Shown here piece by piece: positions 19,731 through 38,731 of a stretch of DNA of 38,731 bases. Below the pieces are notes generated by a model, which had not been told where the DNA came from, made no database searches, and worked only from the letters and a program-made list of their open reading frames with translations. This stretch comes from Rhizobium sp. (GTDB lineage Bacteria > Pseudomonadota > Alphaproteobacteria > Rhizobiales > Rhizobiaceae): assembly GCA_020621905.1 (NCBI GenBank), contig JAHRYZ010000009.1:1-38731 (forward strand). The letters are read 5' to 3'. The number at the start of each line of letters is the position of its first letter. Within the stretch, counting starts at the first letter, position 1. The translations under genes and the position numbers were made by a program.

Positions 19731-20092
19731 ATGATTCAGAAAATTCTTCTCGCCGAAGACGACAACGACATGCGCCGGTTCCTGGTGAAGGCACTGGAAA
19801 AGGCGGGCTACAAGGTGTCCTCCTTCGACAACGGCGCAAGTGCCTATGACCGCCTTCGGGAAGAACCCTTCTCGCTGCTGCTGACCGACATCGTCATGCC
19901 CGAAATGGACGGCATCGAGCTGGCGCGCCGCGCCACCGAACTCGATCCCGATCTCAAGGTGATGTTCATCACCGGCTTTGCCGCGGTCGCCCTCAACGCC
20001 GACTCGCAGGCTCCGAAGGACGCCAAGGTGCTTTCCAAGCCTTTCCACCTTCGCGACCTCGTCAACGAAGTCAACAACTCCTTGCCGCGTAA
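19731..20092 (+). CDS. cpdR: Response regulator CpdR, frameshift in last codons
   Basis: ILLAEDDNDMRRFLVKALEKAGYKV...LLTDIVMPEMDGIELARRATELDPDLKVMFITGFAAVAL...KVLSKPFHLRDLVNEVN; restoring one base near 20077 gives ...LLAA* at 20092. Confidence 0.93.
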
Positions 20093-20184
20093 GGGCTTTC
20101 CGGACGCTTTAAAAACTCGTCACAAAACCGAAAAATCCCTATTGACGGGGCCGAGGGTTTTGTGGTCTTAAGCCGCCATCGGAT

Positions 20185-20259
<75 letters not shown>

Positions 20260-20269
20260 TCCTAATTCA

Positions 20270-20305
20270 AACAAGGGCTTGCCGAATATTCGGCGAGCCC
20301 TTGTT
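20270..20305. terminator. 36-nt near-perfect palindrome 10 nt after tRNA-Val, probable terminator
   Basis: AACAAGGGCT-T-GCCGAATATTCGGC-G-AGCCCTTGTT then gcgtttt. Confidence 0.6.
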
Positions 20306-20596
20306 GCGTTTTCGGACCTCGTTTGCGCGCCCCTCGCCGGCGAAAACCGAAGCGGCACCCGCGCTCCTCTCGCACGATCCTGGCGACTTCGCGCTCGACG
20401 AAACGGCCTCCGACGGGTGCGTGTCCGATCCGGCGCCCCGCCTTCCGGCAGCACCCCACAAGTTCGCGATACCGAGACCGCCAGCCATGCAGATTTCAGG
20501 GGGCAGCGCCGATATCGCCCTTGCCTGCGGCAAGCCGATGAAATCTTATCGCCTTCCCACCTTCCGGCTCTTCAACAGGCAAGCGCACGACACATC

Positions 20597-22150: not shown

Positions 22151-22182
22151 GAGGCCGCCCACCGTCGCAGCCGCCCGCAGAC

Positions 22183-22229
22183 AAAAAAGCCCGCCGGCCG
22201 CGACTGACTTGCAGTCGTGGCAGGCGGGC
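22183..22229 (-). terminator. Intrinsic terminator of the peptide ABC operon
   Basis: Minus strand GCCCGCC...GGCGGGC with inner GACTG/CAGTC pairing, then TTTTTT. Confidence 0.75.
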
Positions 22230-22309: not shown

Positions 22310-23824
22310 TCAGTTCTTGACCGTGTCTTCGAGGAAGAAGCGGCCGAGCGGGTTCTGGTCGAAGTTCTCGATGCCCTTGCGGGTCACGTTGATATAGGGG
22401 CTGTAGTAGAGATCGATCCAGTGGACGTCGTCCTTCGCCATCTTCTGGATGTCGACATACATCGCCTCGCGCTTGACCGGGTCCATCTCGATGCGCGCGG
22501 CGGCAACCAGGTCCTTCACCTTGTCGTTCTTGTAGCGCGTCATGTAGTTCATGTTGGAGTCATGGCCCAGCACGAAGGTCGTCTTCTGGTCCGGGTCGAG
22601 AATGTCGTTGGTCCAGTACATGACCGACAGGTCGTAGTCGCCGGCCACCAGCATGTCCCAGGTCTGGCTCGGATCCATCTTCTGCAGGTTGACGGTGATG
22701 CCCGCCTTCAGCAGTTGCTGCTGCAGGAGAACGGCGATCTGTTCGTCGACCTCGTTGCCGGCATTGACCAGGTAGCTGAGCGTCAGGCCGGAAGCGCCGG
22801 CCTGTTCCAGCAGGGCCTTGGCCTTGTCGGGATCATAGGGACGCTGCATGTTGTCGGCGAAGTGATAGAGCGCGCCCTTCGGAATGTAGGAGTTGGCGAC
22901 CTCTCCGAAGCCGAAGGTGACCGCGTCGACCACCGCCTTCTTGTCGATCGCCAGGTCGAGCGCCTCGCGCACTTCCTTCTTGGCCAGCGCACCATGCTCG
23001 TGGTTGATCAGGAGGTGATCCTCGCGGGTGGAGGTGTCGAGGTGAACGGTGAGGTTCGAATCCTTCTTGAGCTCCTCGACGCGGGAGAACGGAACGAAGA
23101 TCGCCGCATCGAGTTCGCCGGCCTGCACGTTCAGCATGCGGGTATTGTCGTCCGGAACGGAGATCCATTCGACGCCGTCGAGACTGACGCGGTCGGCCTG
23201 CCAGAAGTTGGGGTTCTTCTCCAGGATGACCCGGTCGCCGCGACGCCATTCCTTGACGACGAAGGCGCCCGAGGAGGCGGTCGGCAGTTCCCCGAAGGCG
23301 TCCTCGCCGGCTTCGACCGCCTTCTTCGACAGGATGGAGACATTGGGCAGCGCCAGGGCCGAGAGGAAGGGCGCGGACGGGGTCTTCAGCTTGACGACCA
23401 GCGTGCGGTCGTCGGCGGCTTCGGCCGTATCCACCACCTTGTAGGAATCGCTCCACAGCGACCCCTCGTTGTCACGGATACGCAGCAGGCTGTAGGCCGC
23501 GTCTTCCGCCGTGATCGGCGAACCGTCGGAGAACTTCGCATCACGGATCTTGAAGGTATAGGTGAGACCGTCGTCGGAGATCGTCCAGCTCTCGGCGAGA
23601 CCCGGCTCGAGCTTGGTGCCGGTCTTGTCCACCCGGATCAGCACGTCGAAGACGTTGGAAAACACCCAGTTGTCGACGTTCTGCGCCGTCTTGATCGGAT
23701 CGAAGGTCGTCGAATCCTCACGACGACCGATGGTCAGAACCCCCGCCGCTTCCGCAAGACTGGCGCCCAGGGACAGGGAGGTCATCACCGTGACCAGCCC
23801 GATTTTCATCCATTTGTTCTTCAT
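22310..23824 (-). CDS. Peptide-type ABC transporter substrate-binding protein (SBP_bac_5)
   Basis: Signal peptide; LTIGRREDSTTFDPIKTAQNVDNWVFSNVFDVLIRVD; LEPGLAESWTISDDGLTYTFKIRDAKFSDGSPITAEDAAYSLLRI. Confidence 0.94.
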   Translation of the reverse strand: MKNKWMKIGLVTVMTSLSLGASLAEAAGVLTIGRREDSTTFDPIKTAQNVDNWVFSNVFDVLIRVDKTGTKLEPGLAESWTISDDGLTYTFKIRDAKFSDGSPITAEDAAYSLLRIRDNEGSLWSDSYKVVDTAEAADDRTLVVKLKTPSAPFLSALALPNVSILSKKAVEAGEDAFGELPTASSGAFVVKEWRRGDRVILEKNPNFWQADRVSLDGVEWISVPDDNTRMLNVQAGELDAAIFVPFSRVEELKKDSNLTVHLDTSTREDHLLINHEHGALAKKEVREALDLAIDKKAVVDAVTFGFGEVANSYIPKGALYHFADNMQRPYDPDKAKALLEQAGASGLTLSYLVNAGNEVDEQIAVLLQQQLLKAGITVNLQKMDPSQTWDMLVAGDYDLSVMYWTNDILDPDQKTTFVLGHDSNMNYMTRYKNDKVKDLVAAARIEMDPVKREAMYVDIQKMAKDDVHWIDLYYSPYINVTRKGIENFDQNPLGRFFLEDTVKN

Positions 23825-23865
23825 GCTCTTGTTCCCTTTTTTGGTGGTTTGGTTGATCGAAGGCG

Positions 23866-25548
23866 TCAGGCGGCAGACGACATTCCAGGCGGGATCACCG
23901 CGAGGAGCGGCTTGTCCGGGTCGATGTCGGGAATGGCGCCGATAAGGGCTGCGGTATAGGGGTGCTTGGGATTGGCGAAGACCTCGGTCGACAGGCCCTC
24001 TTCGACGATCTCGCCCCGATACATGACGACCACGCGGTCGCAGAGATTGCGCACGATGGCGAGGTCATGGGCGATGAAGAGCAGCGTCAGCGACATCTTC
24101 TCCTTCAGCTCGCGGAAGAGGTCGATGATCTGTGCCTGGATGGTGACGTCCAGCGCCGCGACGCACTCGTCGGCGATGACGAGGCGCGGATCGATCGCCA
24201 ACGCCCGCGCAATGCCGGCGCGCTGGCACTGACCGCCGCTCATGCTGCGCGGCTTGCGGTCGGCAAACTCCCGTTCGAGACCGACGAGGTCGAGCAGTTC
24301 ACCGATGCGGGCGGGGATGCTCGACGGGTCCTTTCCGTGCACCCTGAGGACCTCGCCCAGCATCTGACCGACCGTCAGGCGCGGGTTGAGGGCGTTGAGC
24401 GGATCCTGGAAGACCATGGCCGCCTCGCGCCTGAGCTTCGCGAGCGCCACCCGCGAATTCTGCGCGAGATCGGCGCCGTCGAAGGTGACGTGGCCCGACG
24501 ACAGCGGCGTCAGGCCGAGAATGGCGCGCGCAAGCGTGCTCTTGCCACTGCCCGATTCCCCGACGATGCCGACGGTCTCTCCGGGCATGACCCGGAGGCT
24601 CACGCCCTTGACCGCGCCGACCGTCTTGGCGCCGGCCTTGAACAGCCCGCCGCCGACGGCAAAGCGCACATGCAGGTCGTCGATTTCCAGAAGCGGACGA
24701 AGGGGCGCCCCGGCCGGCGTTGCGGGTGCGTGAGCAGGCGCCGGGCCCGGATGATCGGGAAGCGAGGGATGGCTGGCGATCAGGGCCTTGGTGTAAGGAT
24801 GCTGCGGCGCGGACAGGATCGAACGCTTGTTGCCCTGCTCGACGAGCTGGCCCTGGCGCATCACGGCGATCCGGTCGCAGGTCTGGGCGACGATGCCGAG
24901 ATCGTGGGTGATGAGGATGATCGACAGTCCGCGGCTTTCGCGCAGGCTCATCAGCAGTTTGAGGATCTGCGCCTGGATGGTCACATCCAGCGCCGTCGTC
25001 GGCTCGTCGGCGATCAGGATCTTCGGATTGCACGACAGCGCAGCGCCGATCATGGCGCGCTGGCGCATGCCACCGGAAAACTCGTGCGGGTAGCTGTCAT
25101 ACTGACGGGCGGGATCGGGAAAGCCCACCTGGCCCAAGATCTCGGTGGCAGCCGCGCGGGCCGCACGTGCATCCAATCCCGCGTGGTAGCGCAAACCCTC
25201 GGCAATCTGGTCGCCGATCCGCATGACCGGGTCGAGATGGCTGGTGGGGTTCTGGAAGATCATGCCGATCTCGCGTCCACGCACTTTCAGCATCTCCGCC
25301 TCGCTGGCGCCGATCAGGTCGCGTCCCTCGAGCAGGACGGAACCGCTTTCGACGGCAAGGCTCAGCGAGGGCAGAAGACCGACCATCGACCGGCAGAGCA
25401 GGCTCTTGCCGGACCCGCTTTCGCCGACCAGCCCCAGCACCTCGCCCTTGTGGAGATCGAGCGACACGCCGTTGATCAGCGTGCGCGCCGCATCGCCCAG
25501 ATGCGCCCTGACCACCAGATCCCGCACGGAAAGCATCGGCGCACTCAT
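23866..25548 (-). CDS. Fused duplicate ABC ATPase (DppD-DppF type)
   Basis: Two Walker A motifs (GESGSGKSLLCRS, GESGSGKSTLARA) and two signature motifs (FSGGMRQR, MSGGQCQR). Confidence 0.95.
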   Translation of the reverse strand: MSAPMLSVRDLVVRAHLGDAARTLINGVSLDLHKGEVLGLVGESGSGKSLLCRSMVGLLPSLSLAVESGSVLLEGRDLIGASEAEMLKVRGREIGMIFQNPTSHLDPVMRIGDQIAEGLRYHAGLDARAARAAATEILGQVGFPDPARQYDSYPHEFSGGMRQRAMIGAALSCNPKILIADEPTTALDVTIQAQILKLLMSLRESRGLSIILITHDLGIVAQTCDRIAVMRQGQLVEQGNKRSILSAPQHPYTKALIASHPSLPDHPGPAPAHAPATPAGAPLRPLLEIDDLHVRFAVGGGLFKAGAKTVGAVKGVSLRVMPGETVGIVGESGSGKSTLARAILGLTPLSSGHVTFDGADLAQNSRVALAKLRREAAMVFQDPLNALNPRLTVGQMLGEVLRVHGKDPSSIPARIGELLDLVGLEREFADRKPRSMSGGQCQRAGIARALAIDPRLVIADECVAALDVTIQAQIIDLFRELKEKMSLTLLFIAHDLAIVRNLCDRVVVMYRGEIVEEGLSTEVFANPKHPYTAALIGAIPDIDPDKPLLAVIPPGMSSAA

Positions 25549-26399
25549 TCGTGAACTCCCAGAAGATCGCCAAGCGCATCGCCGAGCAGACTGAAACCGA
25601 AAGCGAGCACGACGATGGAAAGGCCCGGGAAGAGCGTGATCCACCAGGCGGTGGTGACGAAGGCCTGGCCCTCGGCGACCATGATGCCCCATTCGGCGAG
25701 CGGCGGCTGGACCCCGAGGCCGAGATAGCTGATGGCCGCGCCGCTCAGCAGCACGAGCACGGCATCGGACATGACGAAGACGAGAGAACCGGCAACCGCA
25801 TTGGGCAGCAGGTGGCGGAACATGATGCGCGTCCGGCTGTAGCCCAGGCTGACGGCGGCGACCGCATAGTCGCTGTTCTTCAAGACGAGGATCTGCGCGC
25901 GCACCAGCCGGGCATAGGAAACCCAGCCGACCAGCGCCATGGCAATGTAGAAGCTGCCGAGGCCCGGGCCCAAGATGGCGATGATCGACAACATCAGAAC
26001 GAGGAACGGGAAGGCCAGGATGATGTCGATCAGGCGCATGAAGACGATGTCGACGATGCCGCCGAAGAAGCCCGCGACCGTGCCGGCGATCGTGCCGATC
26101 AGGAAGGGGAAGATGACGCCGATCACCGCGATCTGCAGATCGATCCGGGTGCCCCAGATGACGCGGGAGAGAATGTCGCGGCCGAAATTGTCGGTGCCGA
26201 AGGGGTGAAGCAGCGACGGCGCCTGCAATCGCGCATCGGCGGCCTGCGAGATCGCATCATAGGGCGCGATCAGGGGCGCGGCAACGGCGAGGAAGACGAA
26301 GAAGGCGAGGATGCCGGCGCCCGCGACAAGCGTCAGTCGCTTGCCGAGAAAACGGCGCCATTGGACGGCGAAGGACGGGGCGAAGGTTTCGGCGCTCAT
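25545..26399 (-). CDS. Peptide-type ABC permease (DppC-like)
   Basis: HPFGTDNFGRDILSRVIWGTRIDLQIAV; EAA-like loop; 4-bp overlap with ATPase gene. Confidence 0.94.
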   Translation of the reverse strand: MSAETFAPSFAVQWRRFLGKRLTLVAGAGILAFFVFLAVAAPLIAPYDAISQAADARLQAPSLLHPFGTDNFGRDILSRVIWGTRIDLQIAVIGVIFPFLIGTIAGTVAGFFGGIVDIVFMRLIDIILAFPFLVLMLSIIAILGPGLGSFYIAMALVGWVSYARLVRAQILVLKNSDYAVAAVSLGYSRTRIMFRHLLPNAVAGSLVFVMSDAVLVLLSGAAISYLGLGVQPPLAEWGIMVAEGQAFVTTAWWITLFPGLSIVVLAFGFSLLGDALGDLLGVHE

Positions 26400-27333
26400 A
26401 GCTTCACCCTCGGATCGGCGGCCACCGTGACGATGTCGGCCAGGAAGTTGACGAGCACGGTTGCGCAGGCAAAGACCATGGCGACGCCCTGCACCACCAT
26501 GTAGTCGCGCGAGAAGATGGCCCGCACCAGCAATTGCCCCATGCCGGGAAGGGCAAAGACGCTCTCGATCACCACCGTGCCGCCAATCAGCCAGCCGATA
26601 TTGACGGCAAGCAGATTGATGGTGGGCACGAGCGAGTTCGGCACGACATGGCGCCAGAAGACGATGCTCTCCGGCATGCCCCGGGCGCGGGCCGCCGTCG
26701 CCACATCGGATTTCAGCCCCTGCACCATGGCCGCGCGTAGGCTGCGCGTCAGGCCGTCGACAGCGACAGGGCGACGGTCAGGCCCGGAAGCGCGAGATGC
26801 CAGAGCTTGTCGCCCGGGCTGTTGCCATAGCCCGATACCGGGAAGACGCCGAGCTTGACGCTGAACAGGATGATCAGCATCAGCGCCAGCCAGAAGGGCG
26901 GAAAGCCGATGCCGAGCGTCGAGACGACGCGCACCGCGTGATCGGGAACGCCGCCCTGGTTGCGGGCCGCCAGCGCCGCCATCGGCACCGCGATCAGCAC
27001 GGCCAGCAGGACGCTCACCAGCACCAGCGCCAGCGTCGGCTCGATGCGCGTGGCGATCAGTTTCAGCACGTCGATCTTGTAGAGGATCGACTTGCCCATC
27101 TCGCCGCGGCCGAGATTTTCCAGGAAGTAGAAATATTGCAGCCACAGCGGCTCATCGAGGCCGTATTGCGCGCGGATCTTGGCGATCGCCGTCGGCGTCG
27201 CACGCGTGCCTAAGAGCACCCGCGCCGGGTCGCCGGGAATGAGGCGCACGAGAATGAACGTGATGACACTGATCCCGAAAAGCACGGGCAGGAACTGCAG
27301 CGGACGATAGAGAACGAACTTATAGCGATGCAT
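26396..27333 (-). CDS. Peptide-type ABC permease (DppB-like), frameshift near 26755
   Basis: MHRYKFVLYRPLQFLPVLFGISVITFILVRLIPGDPARVLLG; C-terminal half LTRSLRAAMVQGLKSDVATAARARGMPESIVFWRHVVPNSLVPTINLL in next frame. Confidence 0.93.
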
Positions 27334-28273
27334 GGCAGATGCCGTCTCTCCTTGCCGAATTCAGTGCTGGGGGGATGAACATCATCAGTTTGCCCTGTTG
27401 CGCGAGAAATCCGGTGAGCACCGGATAATACTCCTCGGGATTCTCATAGAACGGCATGTGGCTCGCATTGCGGATCACCTTGAGCTCGGCGCCGGGCAAG
27501 GCGATCTTCATGCGCAGTGCGCAAGCCGGGGTCAGTTCGTCGTGCTCGCCGACCGTGATCAGCACCGGAACCTTGATCTTCGGCAGGTCGGGGATCCGGT
27601 TCCAGTCCTTGAGATTGCCGGTGTAGAGGAATTCGTTCGGTCCCTGCATGGTCACATAGGGCCCCATGTTCCAGTCGTCGAGCGAGCGCCTGACCGGGGC
27701 CGGCCATTCCGGCAGGCGGCAGACATGGCGATAGTTGAGGATGGTGACCGCCGCCATGTATTCGGGATGATCGAAACTGCCCTGAGCCTCGTGCTTCTGC
27801 ATCATCGCGACCGTCTCGGACCCGAGCGCCGCGCGCAGCCGTTCCAGCTCGACGACGAGATGAGGCATGTCGGCGACGGTATCCTCGAGGATCAGGGTCG
27901 CCAGGTTTTCCGGATAGGTCAGCGCATAGTCGATGGCGAGCCAGCCGCCCCAGGAATGGCCGAGCATGTGGACCTTGCCGAGGCCGAGCGCCTTGCGGAC
28001 CGTTTCCGTTTCCTCGACATAGCGCCCGATGGTCCACAGGGCCTCGTCCTCCGGCCGGTCGGAAGCGCCGGTGCCGAGCTGGTCGAAGGCGACGACGCGG
28101 TAGCCGTGGTCCACCAGGCAGGAATGGGCCTCCCGCAGATAGTCGCAGGGCAGGCCCGGACCGCCGTTGAGGCAGAAGATCGTCTCCGCGCCGCTGCCGA
28201 AGCTGTAGGCGATCACCCGACGCCCCTCGACATCGACCTCAATGCGCGCGTCCGGCTCCATCTCTCGCCACAT
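27320..28273 (-). CDS. Proline iminopeptidase-family alpha/beta hydrolase (PIP1)
   Basis: FCLNGGPGLPCDYL oxyanion motif, MLGHSWGGWLAIDYAL nucleophile elbow; overlaps dppB-like start by 14 bp. Confidence 0.88.
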   Translation of the reverse strand: MWREMEPDARIEVDVEGRRVIAYSFGSGAETIFCLNGGPGLPCDYLREAHSCLVDHGYRVVAFDQLGTGASDRPEDEALWTIGRYVEETETVRKALGLGKVHMLGHSWGGWLAIDYALTYPENLATLILEDTVADMPHLVVELERLRAALGSETVAMMQKHEAQGSFDHPEYMAAVTILNYRHVCRLPEWPAPVRRSLDDWNMGPYVTMQGPNEFLYTGNLKDWNRIPDLPKIKVPVLITVGEHDELTPACALRMKIALPGAELKVIRNASHMPFYENPEEYYPVLTGFLAQQGKLMMFIPPALNSARRDGICHASL

Positions 28274-28351
28274 ATGCCCGTCCCTGCCCTCGAATTCTGA
28301 TGCCCAACATTTGAGCATGGCTAATTTTTAACGGAATGACGGGTCCACACC

Positions 28352-28371
28352 AGCTATAAGAAGTGATAGGT
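28352..28371 (-). promoter_or_regulatory. lux-box-like inverted repeat, copy 1 (between PIP1 and luxR)
   Basis: Minus strand ACCTATCACTTCTTATAGCT, about 80 bp upstream of PIP1 and 33 bp upstream of luxR. Confidence 0.65.
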
Positions 28372-28403: not shown

Positions 28404-29161
28404 ATGCTGGACGAAATTGCGGTCCTCAGGGAGAGATTTTCCGCCGCCGGAACGGTGGACGGCAGCGTCGACCAGATGTACGAGACCGCGAAACAGCTCG
28501 GTTTCGATGCCCTGATTTACGACTATACGCCGGTCCCCTTCGACTACAACGGCGACATCATGCTCCCGTCGCTGCTGAAGCTGCGCAACATCGCCGACGA
28601 CATGCCCGATTACTGGTTCAATCGCGGCTATTTCCGCATCGACCCGGTGCAGAGGCTGGCGTGCCGCACCACCGTGCCCTTCTTCTGGAACTACGATCCG
28701 GATGCGGCGACCCTGATCAGCCGCTTCATGACCGAGGAGACCGGGCCGGTGGCTCACTATCTGCGGGAGCGGGACATGTCCCGCGGTATCACCGTACCAG
28801 TGCATACGCCGCGCGGCGACTATGCGACCGTCACCGCCGTGCATTTTGGCCGGGGCGGCGACTTCTCCCGCGAGGCGCAGCACCATATCGCCGAGTTCAG
28901 CCTTGCCGCCCAGGTCTTCCACGAAGCCGCCTATGCGATGTTCGACGCCGGGGCGCGCAGCGTCTCCACGGCGCGCCTGACGGAGCGGGAAAGTGAATGC
29001 CTGCGCTATTCGGCGGAAGGCTATTCGGCCAAGGAAATCTCCCGCATCATCGACCGTTCGGTGCCAACGGTCGTCATGCACCTCAACGCCGCCGCCAAGA
29101 AGCTCGGCGCCAGGAACCGCACCCAGGCGGTCGTACCGCCAGCCATTACCGGCTGCTGTAG
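28404..29161 (+). CDS. LuxR-family regulator with autoinducer-binding domain (PAB-type LuxR solo), frameshift near 29135
   Basis: MPDYWFNRGYFRIDPVQRLACRTTVPFFW; RGITVPVHTPRG; LTERESECLRYSAEGYSAKEISRIIDRSVPTVVMHLNAAAKKLGARNRTQAVV. Confidence 0.93.
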
Positions 29162-29170
29162 GCCGGGCCA

Positions 29171-29189
29171 CCCTATAACTTCGATAGCT
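29171..29189 (+). promoter_or_regulatory. lux-box-like inverted repeat, copy 2 (upstream of PIP2)
   Basis: CCCTATAACTTCGATAGCT; aligns to copy 1 at 16 of 20 positions with one 1-nt gap. Confidence 0.6.
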
Positions 29190-29250
29190 GCGACGCTCTT
29201 CCGCTCGCTATGGTCCGCGACCCAACCGAGGAAGGAGATGCCACACCGAC

Positions 29251-30140
29251 ATGAATGCCACGAGGCTATCTGCCGTTTCGCGATTATCGCACTGCCCGCA
29301 TCACCGGCACGCTGGATTCCCAGAGGCTGCCGCTGGTCGTCGCCCATGGCGGGCCGGGCTGCACCCACGACTACGTCGATTCCTTCAAGCATATCAGCGA
29401 CCTCGACGGCCGCGCAGTGATCCACTACGACCAGCTCGGCAACGGCAACTCGACCCGCCTTCCCGACAAGGGTCCGGACTTCTGGACCGTGGAGCTCTTC
29501 CTCGAGGAACTCGACGCGCTGCTCGCCCATCTGGGCATCAAGGACCGCTACGCCTTTCTCGGCCAGTCCTGGGGCGGCATGCTGGGCGCCGAGCACGCCG
29601 TGCGCCGCCCGGCCGGGCTGAAGGCGCTGGTCATCGCCAATTCGCCGGCGAACATGAAGACCTGGGTGGAGGAGGCAAACCGCCTCAGGCGCGAACTGCC
29701 GCAGGACGTGCAGGACACGCTCACCCGCCACGAGACGGCCGGCAACCTGACCGACCCGGACTACATCGCCGCCTCGCGCGTCTTCTACGACCGTCACGTC
29801 TGCCGCGTCGTTCTCGGCCGCCAGAGGTTGCACGCACCTCGCCATCATGGACGAGGACAATACCGTCTACCGCAACATGAATGGCCCGACCGAATTTCAC
29901 GTCATCGGCACGATGAAGGACTGGACCATCGAGGACCGCCTCCCCCTCATCGAGGCCCCAACCCTGCTGATCTCGGGGCGATATGACGAAGCGACGCCGG
30001 ATGTGGTGCGACCTTATGTCGAACGCGTGCCGGGCTGCCAGTGGATCGTGTTCGAGCAATCGAGCCACATGCCGCATGTGGAGGAACAGGACGCCTGCCT
30101 GAAGGCCGTGTCCGACTTCCTGAAACCGCTCGACGGCTGA
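29251..30140 (+). CDS. Proline iminopeptidase-family alpha/beta hydrolase (PIP2), frameshifted near 29815-29850
   Basis: [38 protein letters not shown]-term [25 protein letters not shown]...[21 protein letters not shown] in another frame; exact start uncertain (29251 or 29255). Confidence 0.88.
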
Positions 30141-30349
30141 CCGCGGGGCAGCGAACCGGCAGGGGCATTTGCATCGCCCCAATCGAGCAGGACTCCGGCA
30201 CGACCGCTGGAGGTTCTGCTGCGTTTGCCATAGCCGGTGTCACCGACCACCCGCCGTCACGATCGCAGCTGCGGCAACCTTCATGCAGCCCCCTCTGACC
30301 GACCCCGCTCTCCGTAAACATCCGAAAATGTGTGACTTCTCCGAATTTC

Positions 30350-30380
30350 ATGTTGCATTTCCAACATCAATATTGTTGGA
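30350..30380. promoter_or_regulatory. Overlapping inverted repeats upstream of the kinase gene
   Basis: ATGTTG-catttc-CAACAT and TCCAACA-tcaatat-TGTTGGA. Confidence 0.5.
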
Positions 30381-30413
30381 TTTGCCAACTCACGATCCGA
30401 ATGGGCGCGCCAA

Positions 30414-31381
30414 ATGTTGTATGATGCAGATTTTCTGTCGAGGCTGGAACATGGTCTGAAGTACCTCTCGTCGGTCTGGGGCGTCTCGCCGGAGGCCGAC
30501 CTCAAGCTCCTGACGATTTCCGAGAACGCCACCTTTCGCATCGCCGACGCCAAGGGCGGGCGCGACCTGATCGTGCGCGTGCATCGGCCCGACTACCATA
30601 CCGAACAGGAAATCCTCTCCGAACTCGCCTGGATCGAGGCGCTGCGGCAGGACGGCGTGGTCGCCACGCCGCAGCCGATCACGGCCAAGGATGGCAGCCT
30701 GCTGCAGGTCTTCTCCGACGGAGAGACCACGCGCCATGCCGTCGCCTTCGAATATATGGCCGGCAAGGAACCGGATGCGAACTGACCGTCCGGTGGTATG
30801 GCGCGCCGGGGAGATCAACGCCCGCCTGCACGGCCACAGCCGAGCACCCGGCCGGACCGGTTCGTCCGCAAGACCTGGAACTTCGACCGCATTCTGAAGG
30901 CGCCTATTGGGCGACTGGCGCGCCGCTTGGGCCACGCCGAAGGGTGAGGATCCCGAGCGCACCCACGCGCTGCTGAACCCAGACTGCGGTCGGCGGCTAC
31001 GGCGCCGATCGCTTCGGTCTCGTTCACTGCGACATGCGCGCCGCCAACCTGCTGGTGGAGGGCGACCGGCTGGGCGTGATCGATTTCGACGACTGCGGCC
31101 TGTCCTGGTTCGCCTATGACTTCGCCGCCGCGATCAGCTTCATGGAGCATGAGCCCTTCATTCCCGACCTGATGGCGGCCTGGCTCGAAGGCTACCGGCG
31201 CGTCGCACCGCTCGATGCCGAACACGAGGCGGCCCTACCGATGTTCATCATGCTCCGCCGCATGCAGCTCACCGCCTGGATCGCCTCGCATGCCGAGACG
31301 CCGACGGCCCAGTCCATGGGCACCGCCTATACCGACGGCACCGTGGCGCTCGCCGAGCGCTATCTGGCCGAACACAGTTGA
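30414..31381 (+). CDS. Aminoglycoside/choline kinase-like (APH family) phosphotransferase, multiply frameshifted
   Basis: N-term [25 protein letters not shown]...; C-term [39 protein letters not shown] catalytic loop in another frame. Confidence 0.82.
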
Positions 31382-31391
31382 GGAGAGCCCG

Positions 31392-32720
31392 ATGAGCGTC
31401 GCCACCAAGGAAATTCTCGACCTCAACCGCTTCGATGCCACCCGCATCGATGGTTTTCCGCCCGAGCTTGCCGAGCGCGTCGCCAAGCGCCAGGCGGCCT
31501 TTGGCGCCTCTTCCGTGCTCTTCTACGAACAGCCGATCGAGATGGTGCGGGCCCGGGGCGCCTATATGTATGACGCCGGCGGGCGCCGATATCTCGACGT
31601 CTACAACAACGTGCCCTCGGTCGGCCATTGCCACCCACGCGTGGTCGAGGCGGTCGCCCGCCAGGTCGGCGAACTCAACATCCACACGCGTTACCTCAAC
31701 CGCGTCGTCGAGGCCTATACCGAAAAGCTGCTCTCCAGGTTTCCGCGGAGCCTCAGCAATGTCGTGCTGACCTGCACCGGCAGCGAGAGCAATGATCTGG
31801 CCATGCGCATCGCCCGCATCGCCACCGGCGCGGAAGGCTTCATCGTCACCGAGGCCGCCTATCACGGCAATACGGCGCTGGTGACGGAGATTTCCCCCTC
31901 CTCGCTGCGCAAGCGCAAACCCGCCCCCTTCGTGGCCATCATCCCGGCGCCCGCCGCGCGCGACGGCAAGAGCGTCGAAGCAAGCTTCGCGGCCTCCGTC
32001 GAACAGGCGATCGCCGAGCTCGAATCGCGCGGCATCGGCCTTGCCGCACTGATCATCGACACGATTTTTTCCAGCGACGGCATCTATGCCGATCCGGCCG
32101 GCTTCCTCAAAGGGGCGACCGATGCCGTGCACCGCGCCGGCGGCCTGTTGATCGCCGACGAGGTCCAGCCCGGCTTCGGCCGCACCGGCGGCGGCTTGTG
32201 GGGGTTCGAGCGCCATGGCGTGACGCCCGACATCGTCACCATGGGCAAGCCCATGGGCAACGGCTTCCCGATGGGCGGGGTCGTCACAAGGCCAGAATTC
32301 CTGAAACGGTTCTGCGAGGAGACCGGCTATTTCAACACCTTCGGCGGCAATCCGGTGGCGGCCGCGGCCGGCCATGCCGTGCTGCAGGTGATCGAGGATG
32401 AGGGGCTGATCGAGCGGTCCGCCACGGTCGGCGGCTATTTCATGCGATCGCTTGAGGCCTTGCAGGGCACGCATTCCGAGATCGGCGACGCGCGCGGCGC
32501 CGGCCTGTTCATCGGCCTCGATTTCACCGACCCGGCGACGGGTGAGCCGGACACGGCACTGGCCACCCATGCGATCAACCAGCTGAAGCACAACGGCATC
32601 CTGATCGGAGCGGCGGGCAAATATGGTGCGACGCTGAAGATCCGCCCGCCGCTGTGCTTCTCTAAGGAGGATGCCGACCTCTTCACCGGCACGCTGGACA
32701 CGATCCTCAAGGCGCGCTGA
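31392..32720 (+). CDS. Class-III aminotransferase-fold PLP enzyme (aminotransferase or phospho-lyase)
   Basis: [82 protein letters not shown]. Confidence 0.93.
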
Positions 32721-32735
32721 GACACCTGATACGCC

Positions 32736-32771
32736 GAAGAAGCCGGGCGCGACATCGTGCCCGGCTTCTTC
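32736..32771. terminator. Perfect 13-bp-arm hairpin between convergent genes
   Basis: GAAGAAGCCGGGC-gcgacatcgt-GCCCGGCTTCTTC. Confidence 0.65.
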
Positions 32772-32776
32772 CGTTG

Positions 32777-33541
32777 TCAGCCCATGGCTTCGAGCGCCAA
32801 GCGATTCCGGCAGGATCTGGCCGCCATCGACGACGATCGACTGGCCGGTGATATAGGCGGCCTCTTCTGACGCAAAGAACAGGGCGGCATTGGCAATATC
32901 TGCCGGCGTGCCGAGACGGCGGAGCGGCACCGAGGCTTCCATGGCGGCGATATATTCCGGACCGTTGCCTTCGAGGCCTTCCGTCATGATGTTGCCGGGC
33001 ATCACGGCATTGACGGTGATCTTCTTCGGCGCAAGCTCGATCGCCGCGGTGCGCATGAAGCCGAGCTGGCCGGCCTTGCTCGCCCCGTAATGCGACCAGC
33101 CCGGATAACCGGTGATCGGTCCGGTGACGAGATGATGATGCGGCCGGAGCCCGCCCTGGTCATCGCCGGCAGCACGGCCGAGACGCTGAGGAAGGTGCTC
33201 TTGAGATTGGTCGAGATGACGTGATCGAAATCGGCCGCCGTCATTTCGCCGAGCCTGGCGGCCGGGAAGATGCCGGCATTGGCGCACAGCACGTCGACGC
33301 CGCCATAGCGGGCGACGGCCGCCTCGACCATGCCCTTGCAGCCCTCCTCCGTGCTGACATCGGCGGCATATCCCGATGCGTTCGGGCCGATTTCGGCGGC
33401 GACCGCGTCGGCATCCGCCTGGCTGCGCGACACGACGAGCACGTTCAACCCGGCCTCCCCGAAGCGCAAAGCGATGCCCTTGCCGATCCCGCGGCTGCCA
33501 CCCGTGACGATAACTGTTTTACCTTGTAGCGACTTCAACAT
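32777..33541 (-). CDS. Short-chain dehydrogenase/reductase (FabG-like), frameshifted near 33135 and 32800
   Basis: [80 protein letters not shown]. Confidence 0.9.
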
Positions 33542-33856
33542 TTTTGGCTCACTTCGTTGTTCTGGACCAAGGGCACTCGGCCGCCGATATTGCCCGATAT
33601 TTTTGCGCGAGATTAAAACCTAGCCACTCCTGCATCGGCGATTGCCCAAAAGAAATGCAAAGTAATTCTCGTACATTAGGTGGAATTCGACGGCGGATGC
33701 AGGACGTCGGCAGGCGTCATTTCGCTTGCCACATCCTCATTGCGCAATGCACAATGAAGAAGAAAATAGATGTTGTAAACTACACATTTTTGCGACACAC
33801 TTCCAACATTATAAGTTCACAAGCCGCCACAGCCGGCCAGAAACAGGGGAACGATA

Positions 33857-34996
33857 ATGATGAAACTCTCCAGACGTAACATGATGCAGATGATGGGCGC
33901 GGCCGCCTTCTCCGGACCGCTGGCAAGCGCCACGCGCGCCTTTGCCGCGCGCGAGAAGGAACTGAACATCCTCTGCTGGGAAGGCTACAATTCCGCCCAG
34001 GTGCTCGACCCGTTCCGCTCCAGCCAGTCGGCGACCGTCAAGGCCGAAAGCCTGACCAACGACCCGACCATGATCAACCGCCTGCGCGCCGGCGAAACCA
34101 AGATCTGGGACCTGATCAACGTCAACAATCCCTGGGCCCGCAAGGTCATGGCGCCGGCCGGCCTCATCAAGCCTTTGCCGCGCGCCGAGTTCGAGCCCTA
34201 TTTCGACACCATGCTGCCGGACTTCAAGGCGCCCTATCGCTGGGCGATGAGCGACGACGGCAAGGATCTGCTGGGCATGGCCCAGCGTTTCGGACCCTAC
34301 AGCTTCGTCGTCAACACCGACAAGGTCAGCAAGGCGACGGCGGAAGAGCAGGGCTGGGAGCTGTTCAACGACACGGCTCTCGCCGGCAAGTACGGCATCC
34401 AGGAATCCGACGACTGGAACGTCTTCAACATCTTCCTGATCGCCGGTATCAATCCGTTCAAGGAGCACACGGAAGAGGAATTCAAGGCCTTCTCCGCGAC
34501 CGCCGAGAAGGTGTTCAAGGGCGCCAAGATGGTCGGCGACATGGCCTCGCTCAACCAGGCGCTGGTATCCGGCGAAATCGACCTCTACATGACCGGCGGC
34601 ACCTATTCCGTCTCGCCGGCCCGGGCCGACGGTTATCCGAACCTGCGTGCCATCACCCCGCTCAAGGGCCCGATCGACGGCAAGGGCGGCATTTCCTGGA
34701 TCGAGATCACCTCCACCGTCAACAATCCGGATCTGTCGCCGCTCGCCATCGAATTCCTCAAATATGTCCAGGATCCGGAAGTCGCCCACACGGTCGCCTT
34801 CGCCGAGGGCACGTTCAATCCGGTCAGCCAGATGGGCAATCCGAAGTGCTTCGAACTGTTCACCAAGGACGAGCTGGACGCCATCCAGTGGGACAGCCTT
34901 GAAGAGGACATGGCCCGTTCGGCCGAGTACGACATCGTGCCCGACTACGACAAGGCACTGGAACTGATGACGGCGGCCAAGCGCCTGCGCGGCTGA
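33857..34996 (+). CDS. Polyamine-type ABC substrate-binding protein (PotD-like) with Tat signal
   Basis: SRRNMMQMMGAAAFSGPLASATRAFA twin-arginine signal; ELNILCWEGYNSAQVLDPFRSS. Confidence 0.92.
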   Translation: MMKLSRRNMMQMMGAAAFSGPLASATRAFAAREKELNILCWEGYNSAQVLDPFRSSQSATVKAESLTNDPTMINRLRAGETKIWDLINVNNPWARKVMAPAGLIKPLPRAEFEPYFDTMLPDFKAPYRWAMSDDGKDLLGMAQRFGPYSFVVNTDKVSKATAEEQGWELFNDTALAGKYGIQESDDWNVFNIFLIAGINPFKEHTEEEFKAFSATAEKVFKGAKMVGDMASLNQALVSGEIDLYMTGGTYSVSPARADGYPNLRAITPLKGPIDGKGGISWIEITSTVNNPDLSPLAIEFLKYVQDPEVAHTVAFAEGTFNPVSQMGNPKCFELFTKDELDAIQWDSLEEDMARSAEYDIVPDYDKALELMTAAKRLRG

Positions 34997-35025
34997 GCCG
35001 CGCAAGGTCTGACGGAGCAAACGAA

Positions 35026-36156
35026 ATGAGCCTTGCAATGATCTCGCCCACCCTGACCGACAACCCATCGGAGACCGAAGACGCAGTCCAGGCCACAACG
35101 GCACCGGTTCTGCAGCTGGTCGATGTCCGCAAGATCTTCGGCGATTTTGCCGCGGTCGACGGCATCAATGTCGACATCAAGGAGGGCGAGTTCGTCACCA
35201 TTGTCGGACCCTCCGGGTCCGGCAAAACGACGCTCTTGCGCATGCTGGCCGGCATGGAATCGCCGTCGCAAGGCTACATCACGCTCCGCGGCGAACTGAT
35301 CAACGACGTGCCGGCCGACAAGCGGCCGACATGTCTTGTCTTCCAGTCGCTGGCGCTCTTCCCGCACAAGACCGTCGGCGAAAACATCGAGTTCCCGCTG
35401 AAGGTCCGCAAGATGCCGGCGGCCGAGCGCAAGGCCCGCGCACTCGAACTGATGCGCATGGTGCGCCTGCCCGAGAGCTACTACTCCAAGAACGTGATGC
35501 GCTGCTCGGGCGGCGAAAAGCAGCGCGTGGCGCTGGCCCGCGCCTTTGCCTACGACCCGGACGTGCTGTTCTTCGACGAACCGCTGTCGGCGCTCGACTA
35601 CAAGCTGAAGAAGGTACTGGAGAAGGAACTGAAGGATCTCCACCGCGAGAGCGGAAAGACCTTCGTCTACATTACCCATTCGCTCGAGGAAGCCATGGTG
35701 ATGTCCGACCGCGTCGGCGTCATGAGCCGCGGCCGCCTCGTGCAGATCGGCACGCCGGAGGAGATCTACACCCGGCCCGCCACCCGTTTCGTCGCCGAGT
35801 TCTTCGGCGAGGTGAACAGCTTCGAAGTGAAGCGCGAGGGTCAGGGCGCCTGGACCCTGACCGATGGCAAGCCGATCACGGTGGCCCCGGTCGGCGAAGC
35901 GATCGGCGACACGGCCACCGTCATCGTGCGGCCGGAGACCATGCGCTTCGTCACCGGCCCCTCGAGCGCCGACAACCTGATCACCGGCAGGATCTACAAC
36001 GAATACTCGCTTGGCTCGCGCATGCAGTACCAGGTGCATTCCGGCGAACGGATCTACCTCGTCGAGGCGGCACGCACAGCGGTGGCCGGCATCTCCGCGG
36101 GCGACACCGTCACCATCGGCTGGGATGCCCGCGACGCCATTGTGGTGGGAGACTGA
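35026..36156 (+). CDS. Polyamine-type ABC ATPase (PotA-like)
   Basis: GPSGSGKTTLLRMLAGMESPSQGYI; CSGGEKQRVALARAFAYDPDVLFFDEPLSALD; TOBE-like C-terminus. Confidence 0.96.
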   Translation: MSLAMISPTLTDNPSETEDAVQATTAPVLQLVDVRKIFGDFAAVDGINVDIKEGEFVTIVGPSGSGKTTLLRMLAGMESPSQGYITLRGELINDVPADKRPTCLVFQSLALFPHKTVGENIEFPLKVRKMPAAERKARALELMRMVRLPESYYSKNVMRCSGGEKQRVALARAFAYDPDVLFFDEPLSALDYKLKKVLEKELKDLHRESGKTFVYITHSLEEAMVMSDRVGVMSRGRLVQIGTPEEIYTRPATRFVAEFFGEVNSFEVKREGQGAWTLTDGKPITVAPVGEAIGDTATVIVRPETMRFVTGPSSADNLITGRIYNEYSLGSRMQYQVHSGERIYLVEAARTAVAGISAGDTVTIGWDARDAIVVGD

Positions 36157-36157
36157 C

Positions 36158-37054
36158 ATGGCGGTAGCGACCCACGAAGACATGGCAAGCCGTGCAAGCG
36201 CCCTGCCCGCGATCCCCGCCGGCCTTCGCGCCGCCGGCCCCGTTGCCATCCTGCTGGTGCTGGGCTTCCTCGCCCCACTGCTGACGGTTGCGGCTTATGC
36301 CTTTGCCACGCCGAAGAGCTTCGACGCCTTCAGCTCCTTCACCCTCGCCAATTTCGCGGCGATCTTCGACACCTCCAACACGGTGTGGATGTCGTTTGCC
36401 TGGTCGCTTGCCTATGCATTCGCCACCGTGGTGCTTTTGGCAGTGATCGCCTATCCGATCGCCTATGGCCTCAATCGCGTGTTCGGCAAATGGTCGGGCT
36501 TCGTCGGCGTGCTTTTCGTCTTCCCGCTCTTCGTCTCGGAAAACGTCCGCCTCTATGGCTGGGTGCTGTTCTTCATCAAGAACGGCGTGCTCGACGGCGG
36601 ACTGAAATGGCTCGGCTTCTCCGGCGGCCCCGAAGTGCTCTACACGCCCGGCGCCATCCTCTTCGGCATGCTCTATGTCTACCTGCCCTTCATGCTCTTC
36701 CCGATGTCGCTCGGCATCGCCATGATCCCCAGGGACCTGGTCGATGCGGCGCGCGACCTTGGGGCCGGCCGCCTGATGATCTGGCGCGAGATCGAACTGC
36801 CGCTCGCCATGCCCGGCATCCTGATCGGCATGCTGCTCACCTTCGTGCTCGGCGCCGGCGCCATCGCCGAATCCAAGATCCTAGGCGGCCAGTCGGTCAT
36901 CACCATCGCCCAGGACATCGAGGTCGCCTTCACCTATGCGCAGAACTGGCCGCTGGGTTCGGCACTCGCCATCCTGCTCGTCATCATCGTCAGCGGGCTT
37001 GCCCTCCACGTCCTGTCGAAGCTCGATCTCGACCGCATTCTCGGAAAGAAGTGA
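36158..37054 (+). CDS. Polyamine-type ABC permease (PotB-like)
   Basis: Multi-TM; IPRDLVDAARDLGAGRLMIWREIELPLAMPGILIG EAA motif. Confidence 0.94.
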   Translation: MAVATHEDMASRASALPAIPAGLRAAGPVAILLVLGFLAPLLTVAAYAFATPKSFDAFSSFTLANFAAIFDTSNTVWMSFAWSLAYAFATVVLLAVIAYPIAYGLNRVFGKWSGFVGVLFVFPLFVSENVRLYGWVLFFIKNGVLDGGLKWLGFSGGPEVLYTPGAILFGMLYVYLPFMLFPMSLGIAMIPRDLVDAARDLGAGRLMIWREIELPLAMPGILIGMLLTFVLGAGAIAESKILGGQSVITIAQDIEVAFTYAQNWPLGSALAILLVIIVSGLALHVLSKLDLDRILGKK

Positions 37055-37057
37055 GAC

Positions 37058-37866
37058 ATGGAAACCCGCTCGCAGATCCGCGCCCGCGCCTTCGTCAAGC
37101 TCTGGACCGCATTCGTCGTTCTCGCCATCTACCTGCCGATCGTCTGCGGCGCGCTGGCCGGCCTGTCCAAGGGCCGCTACTTCGCCTTCCCGGTCCGCGT
37201 CTTCTCGACCGAATGGTGGAGCAAGACCTTTGCCTCGCTGGAAATCCAGACGCTGGTGCAGAACTCGCTGCTGATCGCCTTCATCGTCACGCTGGTCTCG
37301 GTGGTCTTCGCCTTCTTCGGCGCACTCGCCTTCGCCCGTTACGACTGGAAGGGCCGCAAGCTGTTCCAGAAGGCGAGATCCTCTGCCCGTCTTCTCTTTC
37401 CGCAGCCGGTGCGGGGCTCGCCCTCCTCCTGTGGTTCAACGCGCTCGGCATCAATCCGAGCTGGCAGACGGCGGTCGTCGCCCATCTCGTCTGGATCGTG
37501 CCGGTGGTCACCCTGGTCATCGCCATCCAGGTCTATTCCCTCGACCCGACGCTCGAAGAGGCCGCCCGCGACCTCGGCGCCAGCCGCTGGTTCATCCTGC
37601 GCGAGATCACCCTGCCGATCCTCTGGCCCGGCATCTGGTCGGGCGCGCTCTTTGCCTTCCTGCTGTCCTGGGGCAATTTCCCGCTGTCGCTCTACACGGC
37701 GGGCGTCGACTCGACGATCCCGAAATGGCTCTACTCGAAGATGGTCGCCGGCTATTCGCCGATGGTCCCGGCGCTCGGCACGATGAGCACGCTTTCGGCC
37801 GCCGCCCTGTTGCTTGCCGGCGGACTTGTCATCATGCTGGTGCGCCGCCGCCAGGCGGAAGCATGA
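37058..37866 (+). CDS. Polyamine-type ABC permease (PotC-like), frameshifted near 37375-37415
   Basis: N-term METRSQIRARAFVKLWTAFVVLAIYLPI...; C-term LEEAARDLGASRWFILREITLPILWPGIWSG in another frame. Confidence 0.93.
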
Positions 37867-37876
37867 GGATCATCGC

Positions 37877-38578
37877 ATGAGCTGGAAGACCGAACGCCGT
37901 TCCTTCTACTACCAGGGGGCCCCGGAGCCCGAGGATCCGGTGCTCGAAAAGGGCAAGGTGGCGCTGCTCGTCATCGACATGCAGAACACCTATCTCGATC
38001 GCCCGGACCCTGCGACCCTGTCGGCCGTCGACCTTGCCCGCTATCACGCCTGGACGCCGTTCCATGAGCGGATGCACGGTACCGTCGTCCCCAACAACCA
38101 GCGCCTGCTGGAGCGCTTCCGGTCGCTCGGCCTCGACGTGCTCTTCGCCCGCATCGCTTGCCTGCGCACCGATGGCCGTGACCGATCGCTCAGCCAGAAG
38201 AAGCCCGGCTGGAACAACCTGCTGCTGCCGAAGGACGAGCAGGCCTCGCAGATCCTGTCGCAGATCGCCCCGCTCGACGGCGAGATCGTCGTCACCAAGA
38301 CGACCGACAGCGCGCTGACCGGCACCAATCTGAGACTCGTGCTCGCCAATATGGGCATCACCCATGTGGTGTGCACCGGCATCTTCACCGACCAGTGCGT
38401 CTCCTCGACGGTGCGCAGCCTCGCCGACGAGAGCTTCGACGTGATCGTCGTCGATGATGCCTGCGCAGCCGGCTCGATGGACCTGCATGTGAGCGAGCTG
38501 GAGCGCATCCACATGATCTACGCCAATGTGATGAACACCGACGAGCTGATCGGCTATCTGCCGCCCGCGCAAGGATGA
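37877..38578 (+). CDS. Isochorismatase-like cysteine hydrolase
   Basis: ALLVIDMQNTYL; VVTKTTDSALTGTNL; VVCTGIFTDQCVSSTVRSL (Asp-Lys-Cys triad). Confidence 0.93.
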   Translation: MSWKTERRSFYYQGAPEPEDPVLEKGKVALLVIDMQNTYLDRPDPATLSAVDLARYHAWTPFHERMHGTVVPNNQRLLERFRSLGLDVLFARIACLRTDGRDRSLSQKKPGWNNLLLPKDEQASQILSQIAPLDGEIVVTKTTDSALTGTNLRLVLANMGITHVVCTGIFTDQCVSSTVRSLADESFDVIVVDDACAAGSMDLHVSELERIHMIYANVMNTDELIGYLPPAQG

Positions 38579-38643
38579 GACAGTCGGGGATGGCGCGCGC
38601 CCTGGACTTGTCCCACTTGGCCGTTCCTGACACAACTTGGCCG

Positions 38644-38731
38644 ATGAAAGCGCCCGAAATCCTCTGTGCCGGCAAGACCCTCGCCGTCCGCTTCGCCGCC
38701 GAACAGGCGGTGCTCAGCTGGTCCCTGAGCC
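38644..38731 (+). CDS. Truncated 5' end of a CDS, possibly adenosylcobinamide amidohydrolase (CbiZ-like)
   Basis: MKAPEILCAGKTLAVRFAAEQAVLSWSLS...; open to window edge; family guess only. Confidence 0.3.
   Translation, partial: MKAPEILCAGKTLAVRFAAEQAVLSWSLS

Follow-up and report, generated by a model that had tools for sequence, protein, structure and literature searches.

The window (the whole stretch of 38,731 nucleotides that was analysed) carries a luxR solo of the NesR/PipR (PAB) type on the forward strand at 28404-29161. The gene is read in frame 1 to about 29136 and then in the +1 frame to the TAG at 29159-29161; the original prediction gave the same span, but its end is reached only after the +1 frame change near 29137, since the open frame itself continues to 29420. 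Divergently from luxR, on the reverse strand, lies pip1 (27320-28318), an AapA-like hydrolase of the proline-iminopeptidase family (TIGR01250, 267 bits); its likely start is the ATG at 28273, and homologs align from residue 16. A second, PipA-like hydrolase of this family, pip2, follows luxR on the forward strand at 29243-30140 (ORFs 29255-29986 and 29847-30140); its intact ortholog of 303 aa in the relative L044 scores 269 bits to TIGR01250.

The reverse strand continues from pip1 with ABC permease 1 (AapB-like, 26396-27333) and ABC permease 2 (AapC-like, 25545-26399), both identified from the neighbourhoods of relatives, then a single ORF with two ABC ATPase domains (AapD/E-like, 23866-25692; ABC_tran 213 bits in two stretches, oligo_HPY), and finally a periplasmic binding protein (22310-23824). 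The latter is an AapF ortholog, with 796 bits to the solved AapF (7kz8/7kz9) and 170 bits to the next-best PDB match. Thus, a complete AapB-F-type importer adjoins luxR; neither the importer nor the flanking pip genes were noticed in the original prediction.

Results

Conservation of the locus. The gene order is identical in all 80 named loci of Rhizobiaceae and Brucella, and it is also kept in most sampled relatives from the family, in an order-level relative and in Pseudomonas-like relatives from the phylum. In two family relatives (L038 and L039) two pip genes stand in tandem upstream of the importer; no pip gene follows luxR there and, correspondingly, the downstream box is absent. Three other neighbourhoods (L041, L042 and L143, which belong to L024, L025 and a class-level relative, respectively) contain a PAB-type regulator, one pip gene and a CTAT-N8-ATAG box, with an SBP_5 importer only about 24% identical in place of AapF; possibly, this is a PAB branch with another ligand.

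The DNA downstream of pip2 differs. Similarity between the window (30150-38731) and Ciceribacter selenitireducens is lost directly after pip2. In C. selenitireducens the genes found there are a GMC gene resembling choline dehydrogenase and an ABC importer of the nitrate/taurine type; the window has an APH-family kinase, a class-III aminotransferase, an SDR and a polyamine-type ABC importer, with frameshifts here too. The kinase and the aminotransferase (30414-32720) were considered as a catabolic arm for amino alcohols, which would link them to PipR's ethanolamine-type ligand. This was rejected because neither gene occurs near the locus in any relative, whether among the 80 named or the 17 sampled ones, and because C. 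selenitireducens diverges at this very point.

Residues of the regulator. The translation of 28404-29132 contains the string DMPDYWFNRGYFRIDPV, from which methionine and tryptophan had been predicted at positions 57 and 61 of the TraR numbering. Counting back from D70 (residue 80) indeed shows that position 57 is Met (residue 67, codon 28602-28604 on the forward strand) and that position 61 is Trp (residue 71, codon 28614-28616); the alignments agree. The predicted retention of D70, P71, W85 and G113 is confirmed, and the DNA-binding residues E178, L182 and G188 are intact as well. The rest of the PAB specificity patch, which the original prediction did not use, is also present (Q73, V101 and L105, where the subfamily has L, M or V at 105). 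The patch is described for OryR and PsaR2 as W71, Q83, V116 and L120 (PMC3909224, PMC3821632), and these residues sit at exactly equal residue numbers in our protein. It does not carry the TraR-type AHL signature (W57, Y61, a hydrophobic residue at 73, F101 and A105).

Two domains are recognised in the 243 residues preceding the frame break, Autoind_bind at 93 bits and GerE at 49 bits. Modelled with AlphaFold (mean pLDDT 85, pTM 0.71), the regulator has structural matches to TraR, LasR, QscR, RhlR and SdiA, with TM of about 0.84 (by target length) to LasR ligand domains.

The methionine and the tryptophan are invariant in 18 of 18 family relatives and in all 28 rows of a second alignment set. 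None of the 12 TraR-type proteins has the pair M57+W61, nor do the five further Autoind_bind proteins encoded in the host genome (of these, L006 is too short at that end to be scored).

Phylogeny and distribution. In the tree, 30 PAB rows, including the window protein and the S. meliloti (NesR) copy, are separated by a branch supported at 100/100 from the 12 TraR-type proteins and the 5 other LuxRs of the genome. The clade is anchored by the S. meliloti copy and Pseudomonas-like copies, with OryR and PipR themselves absent from the tree. Among the PAB rows, W61, Q73 and V101 each occur in 30 of 30, and M57 in 26 of 30. W57 is found in L137-L140, all of which have a Pseudomonas-type locus, in agreement with the W57 reported for Pseudomonas members (Table 2 of PMC3909224). 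The double substitution W57M/Y61W had been proposed as the PAB hallmark; considering that W57M fails in these four rows, only Y61W can be taken as the general mark.

The window-type LuxR is carried by 18 of the 151 sampled genomes of the same family. Among the 80 loci of the named genome collection, the best matches are 99%-identical copies in C. selenitireducens ATCC BAA-1503 and in a Rhizobium MAG, followed by copies in Rhizobium, Ensifer/Sinorhizobium, Neorhizobium and Brucella pituitosa, so the window originates from Ciceribacter-like Rhizobiaceae. A sample of 400 genomes from the phylum added Pseudomonas-like and other gamma- and alphaproteobacterial copies (the genus was judged by the locus type).

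The residues and the phylogeny support the predicted assignment to the PAB (OryR/NesR/PipR) subfamily, and so do the two pip genes beside luxR and the importer of the AapF type. It is well supported that the locus is a NesR/PipR ortholog, i.e., an ordinary new member of a known regulator system; this interkingdom-signalling module is thereby extended to a Ciceribacter-like soil bacterium. The rule that PAB LuxRs always adjoin pip has an exception: the M57/W61 regulator at L141:9440-10246 has neither pip nor a peptide importer nearby and is adjoined by a divergent APC-type amino-acid permease.

Operator sites. A lux-box-like site, CAGCTATAAGAAGTGATAGG, lies on the forward strand at 28351-28370 in the divergent intergenic region; shuffles give 0 such sites expected by chance. 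From its centre to the start codons that follow on either side, the distance is about 88 bp for pip1 (likely ATG) and about 42 bp for luxR. The second site, between luxR and pip2 (about 29172-29190, reverse strand), is a near-identical inverse of the first; it is one base short in the window and intact in the relatives L043 and L044, and in L044 it is located at about -64 to -70 from the pip2 start. The box was spotted by eye when the two intergenic regions were compared and was then confirmed in relatives; an automated repeat search of both intergenic stretches returned nothing at the settings used.

Both boxes are found in 80 of 80 named loci, with conservation of 0.999 for the first site (flanks 0.46-0.79) and 0.970 for the second (flanks 0.62-0.64). 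The pattern CTATNA-N4-TNATAG is retained in diverged relatives, and its spacing CT-N12-AG is that of lux boxes. A search of 28 genomes for GCTATNANNNNTNATAGG, the exact 18-bp form, gave 24 hits, every one at the luxR locus, in 16 of 17 carrier genomes; this search, which would miss weaker sites, found none elsewhere in the carriers or in the 11 non-carrier genomes. As these loci are the source of the pattern, only its absence elsewhere is informative.

The concept of a lux/pip box is already in print for the PAB subfamily (PMC4981722, PMC7301841). Our literature search found no description of the rhizobial operator CTATNA-N4-TNATAG, which is not a proof of absence. The operator is precise and testable for the rhizobial branch of PAB regulators, and its locus-only distribution makes it directly testable whether NesR acts globally or on its own locus alone.

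Discussion

We consider it quite probable that the locus works as a NesR/PipR-type circuit with peptidase feedback. The importer (22310-27333) would take up a small peptide-like or ethanolamine-like compound, which would bind the LuxR pocket. The lactone-facing residues of the pocket are altered (M57, W61, Q73, V101, L105), and therefore an acyl-homoserine lactone is not expected as the ligand. With its ligand bound, the LuxR dimer would occupy the two matching boxes and activate pip2 downstream as well as the divergent operon of pip1 and the transporter; the peptidases would then degrade the signal, which would constitute a negative feedback. The residues, the clade, the gene order, the AapF orthology and the conserved boxes with their restriction to the locus are direct observations. 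The requirement for import, the activation and the feedback are presumed from the work on PipR: in Pseudomonas sp. GM79 the induction of pipA needs import and PipR, and the peptidases dampen it (PMC4981722).

Which signal is sensed is a separate matter. It is plausible that the regulator senses a plant signal, as several orthologs do. A plant ligand is no more than an inference here: the response of NesR, the closest studied ortholog, to plant compounds is unaddressed in PMC3821632, and in PsrR of Kosakonia, another family member, neither macerate nor ethanolamine nor HEHEAA elicits a response (PMC7301841). This failure of PsrR counts against the proposed circuit, as do an AapF homolog from elsewhere that does not bind HEHEAA (PMC10134790) and the fact that the nearest public copies do not come from known plant symbionts.

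The same regulator and wiring could instead serve to sense nutrients, be it in soil, in water or in reactors, with the signal being general peptides or breakdown products of amino alcohols rather than anything specific to plants; we give this slightly less than an even chance. Peptones and Ser-His-Ser also trigger PipR (PMC4981722), a connection of NesR with nutrition and stress has been described (PMC3821632), the locus is present in only 18 of the 151 sampled family genomes, and its nearest public copies are those of C. selenitireducens and a MAG, with Brucella pituitosa also among the carriers. However, the named carriers were mostly isolated from legumes or plants, and macerates trigger several orthologs (PMC10134790).

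It is also conceivable, although rather doubtful, that the regulon is restricted to its own locus by the single strict operator, so that in many carriers the system is a self-contained scavenging sensor of an imported peptide-like or amino-alcohol nutrient and not a dedicated receptor of a plant signal. If this is true, the published pleiotropic phenotypes of NesR would be indirect. The literature ties NesR of Sinorhizobium and Ensifer to the methionine cycle and stress phenotypes, a role wider than the locus-only boxes suggest.

The state of the genes in this strain also deserves a comment. One base is lost at about 29137 in luxR; both close relatives have that base, and the ortholog in L043 and L044 is intact (252 aa), with the protein being 99% identical. 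Other frameshifts, all due to indels found only in the window, affect the 3' end of pip1 (about 27400), permease 1 (about 26754) and pip2 (several). About fifteen single-base losses are packed into 160 bp (29137-29297), whether the DNA is coding or not. Neither close relative has any of these losses, although their identity to the window is 94-96% over the full 11.8 kb. Considering their density across coding and non-coding DNA and their absence from both relatives, the frameshifts are probably assembly errors in a poorly covered segment. Breaks in four genes might instead suggest a decaying locus and a system that is dead in this strain; we regard this as very improbable, since the losses ignore the boundary between coding and non-coding DNA, are absent from both relatives and follow a protein that is 99% identical up to the break. 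Further single-base length differences from the close relatives are found beyond the luxR locus, at 20076-20511, 22162-22183 and 23837.

The original prediction noted that the window lacks a luxI-like ORF, which is correct; nor is there one anywhere on its contig. A cognate luxI nearby in the genome was named as a counterargument. The genome (88% complete, in 455 contigs) does have one luxI, but it is on contig C398, where a luxR-like gene of its own adjoins it, and it is not linked to the window luxR. With this luxI and the kept Autoind_bind fold one could think of a receptor eavesdropping on AHLs, including those from the strain's own LuxI; this is hardly credible, as each lactone-facing specificity residue is unlike that of AHL receptors, a LuxR of its own is encoded next to the LuxI, and OryR and PipR are unresponsive to AHLs. 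We reject the identity of the protein as an AHL receptor on the residues and the tree.

Comparison with known systems

The closest system is NesR of Sinorhizobium meliloti, a PAB LuxR solo (class D/subgroup 0) from the same bacterial family, listed as M/W in Table 2 of PMC3909224 and represented in our comparisons by the copy L094 from strain 4H41. The two proteins are about 70% identical, and the loci share M57/W61, the pip-luxR-pip and importer order and both boxes. They differ in genus, in the assembly-type indels of the window copy, and in the genes after pip2, which do not lie beside the S. meliloti copy.

The PipR-AapA-F-PipA system of Pseudomonas sp. GM79 has the same gene arrangement and an AapF ortholog (PMC4981722). 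Its boxes are at -91.5 (aapA) and -71.5 (pipA) (PMC4981722), nearly equal to about -88 in the window and -64 to -70 in L044. GM79 has two separate ATPase genes, whereas the window has one ORF. Most listed Pseudomonas PAB regulators (PMC3909224; L137-L140) keep W57 and are about 40% identical to the window LuxR. OryR and XccR of Xanthomonas have, like the window, the specificity patch W71, Q83, V116 and L120 (PMC3909224) and an adjacent pip; unlike the window, they have no linked ABC importer (PMC4981722).
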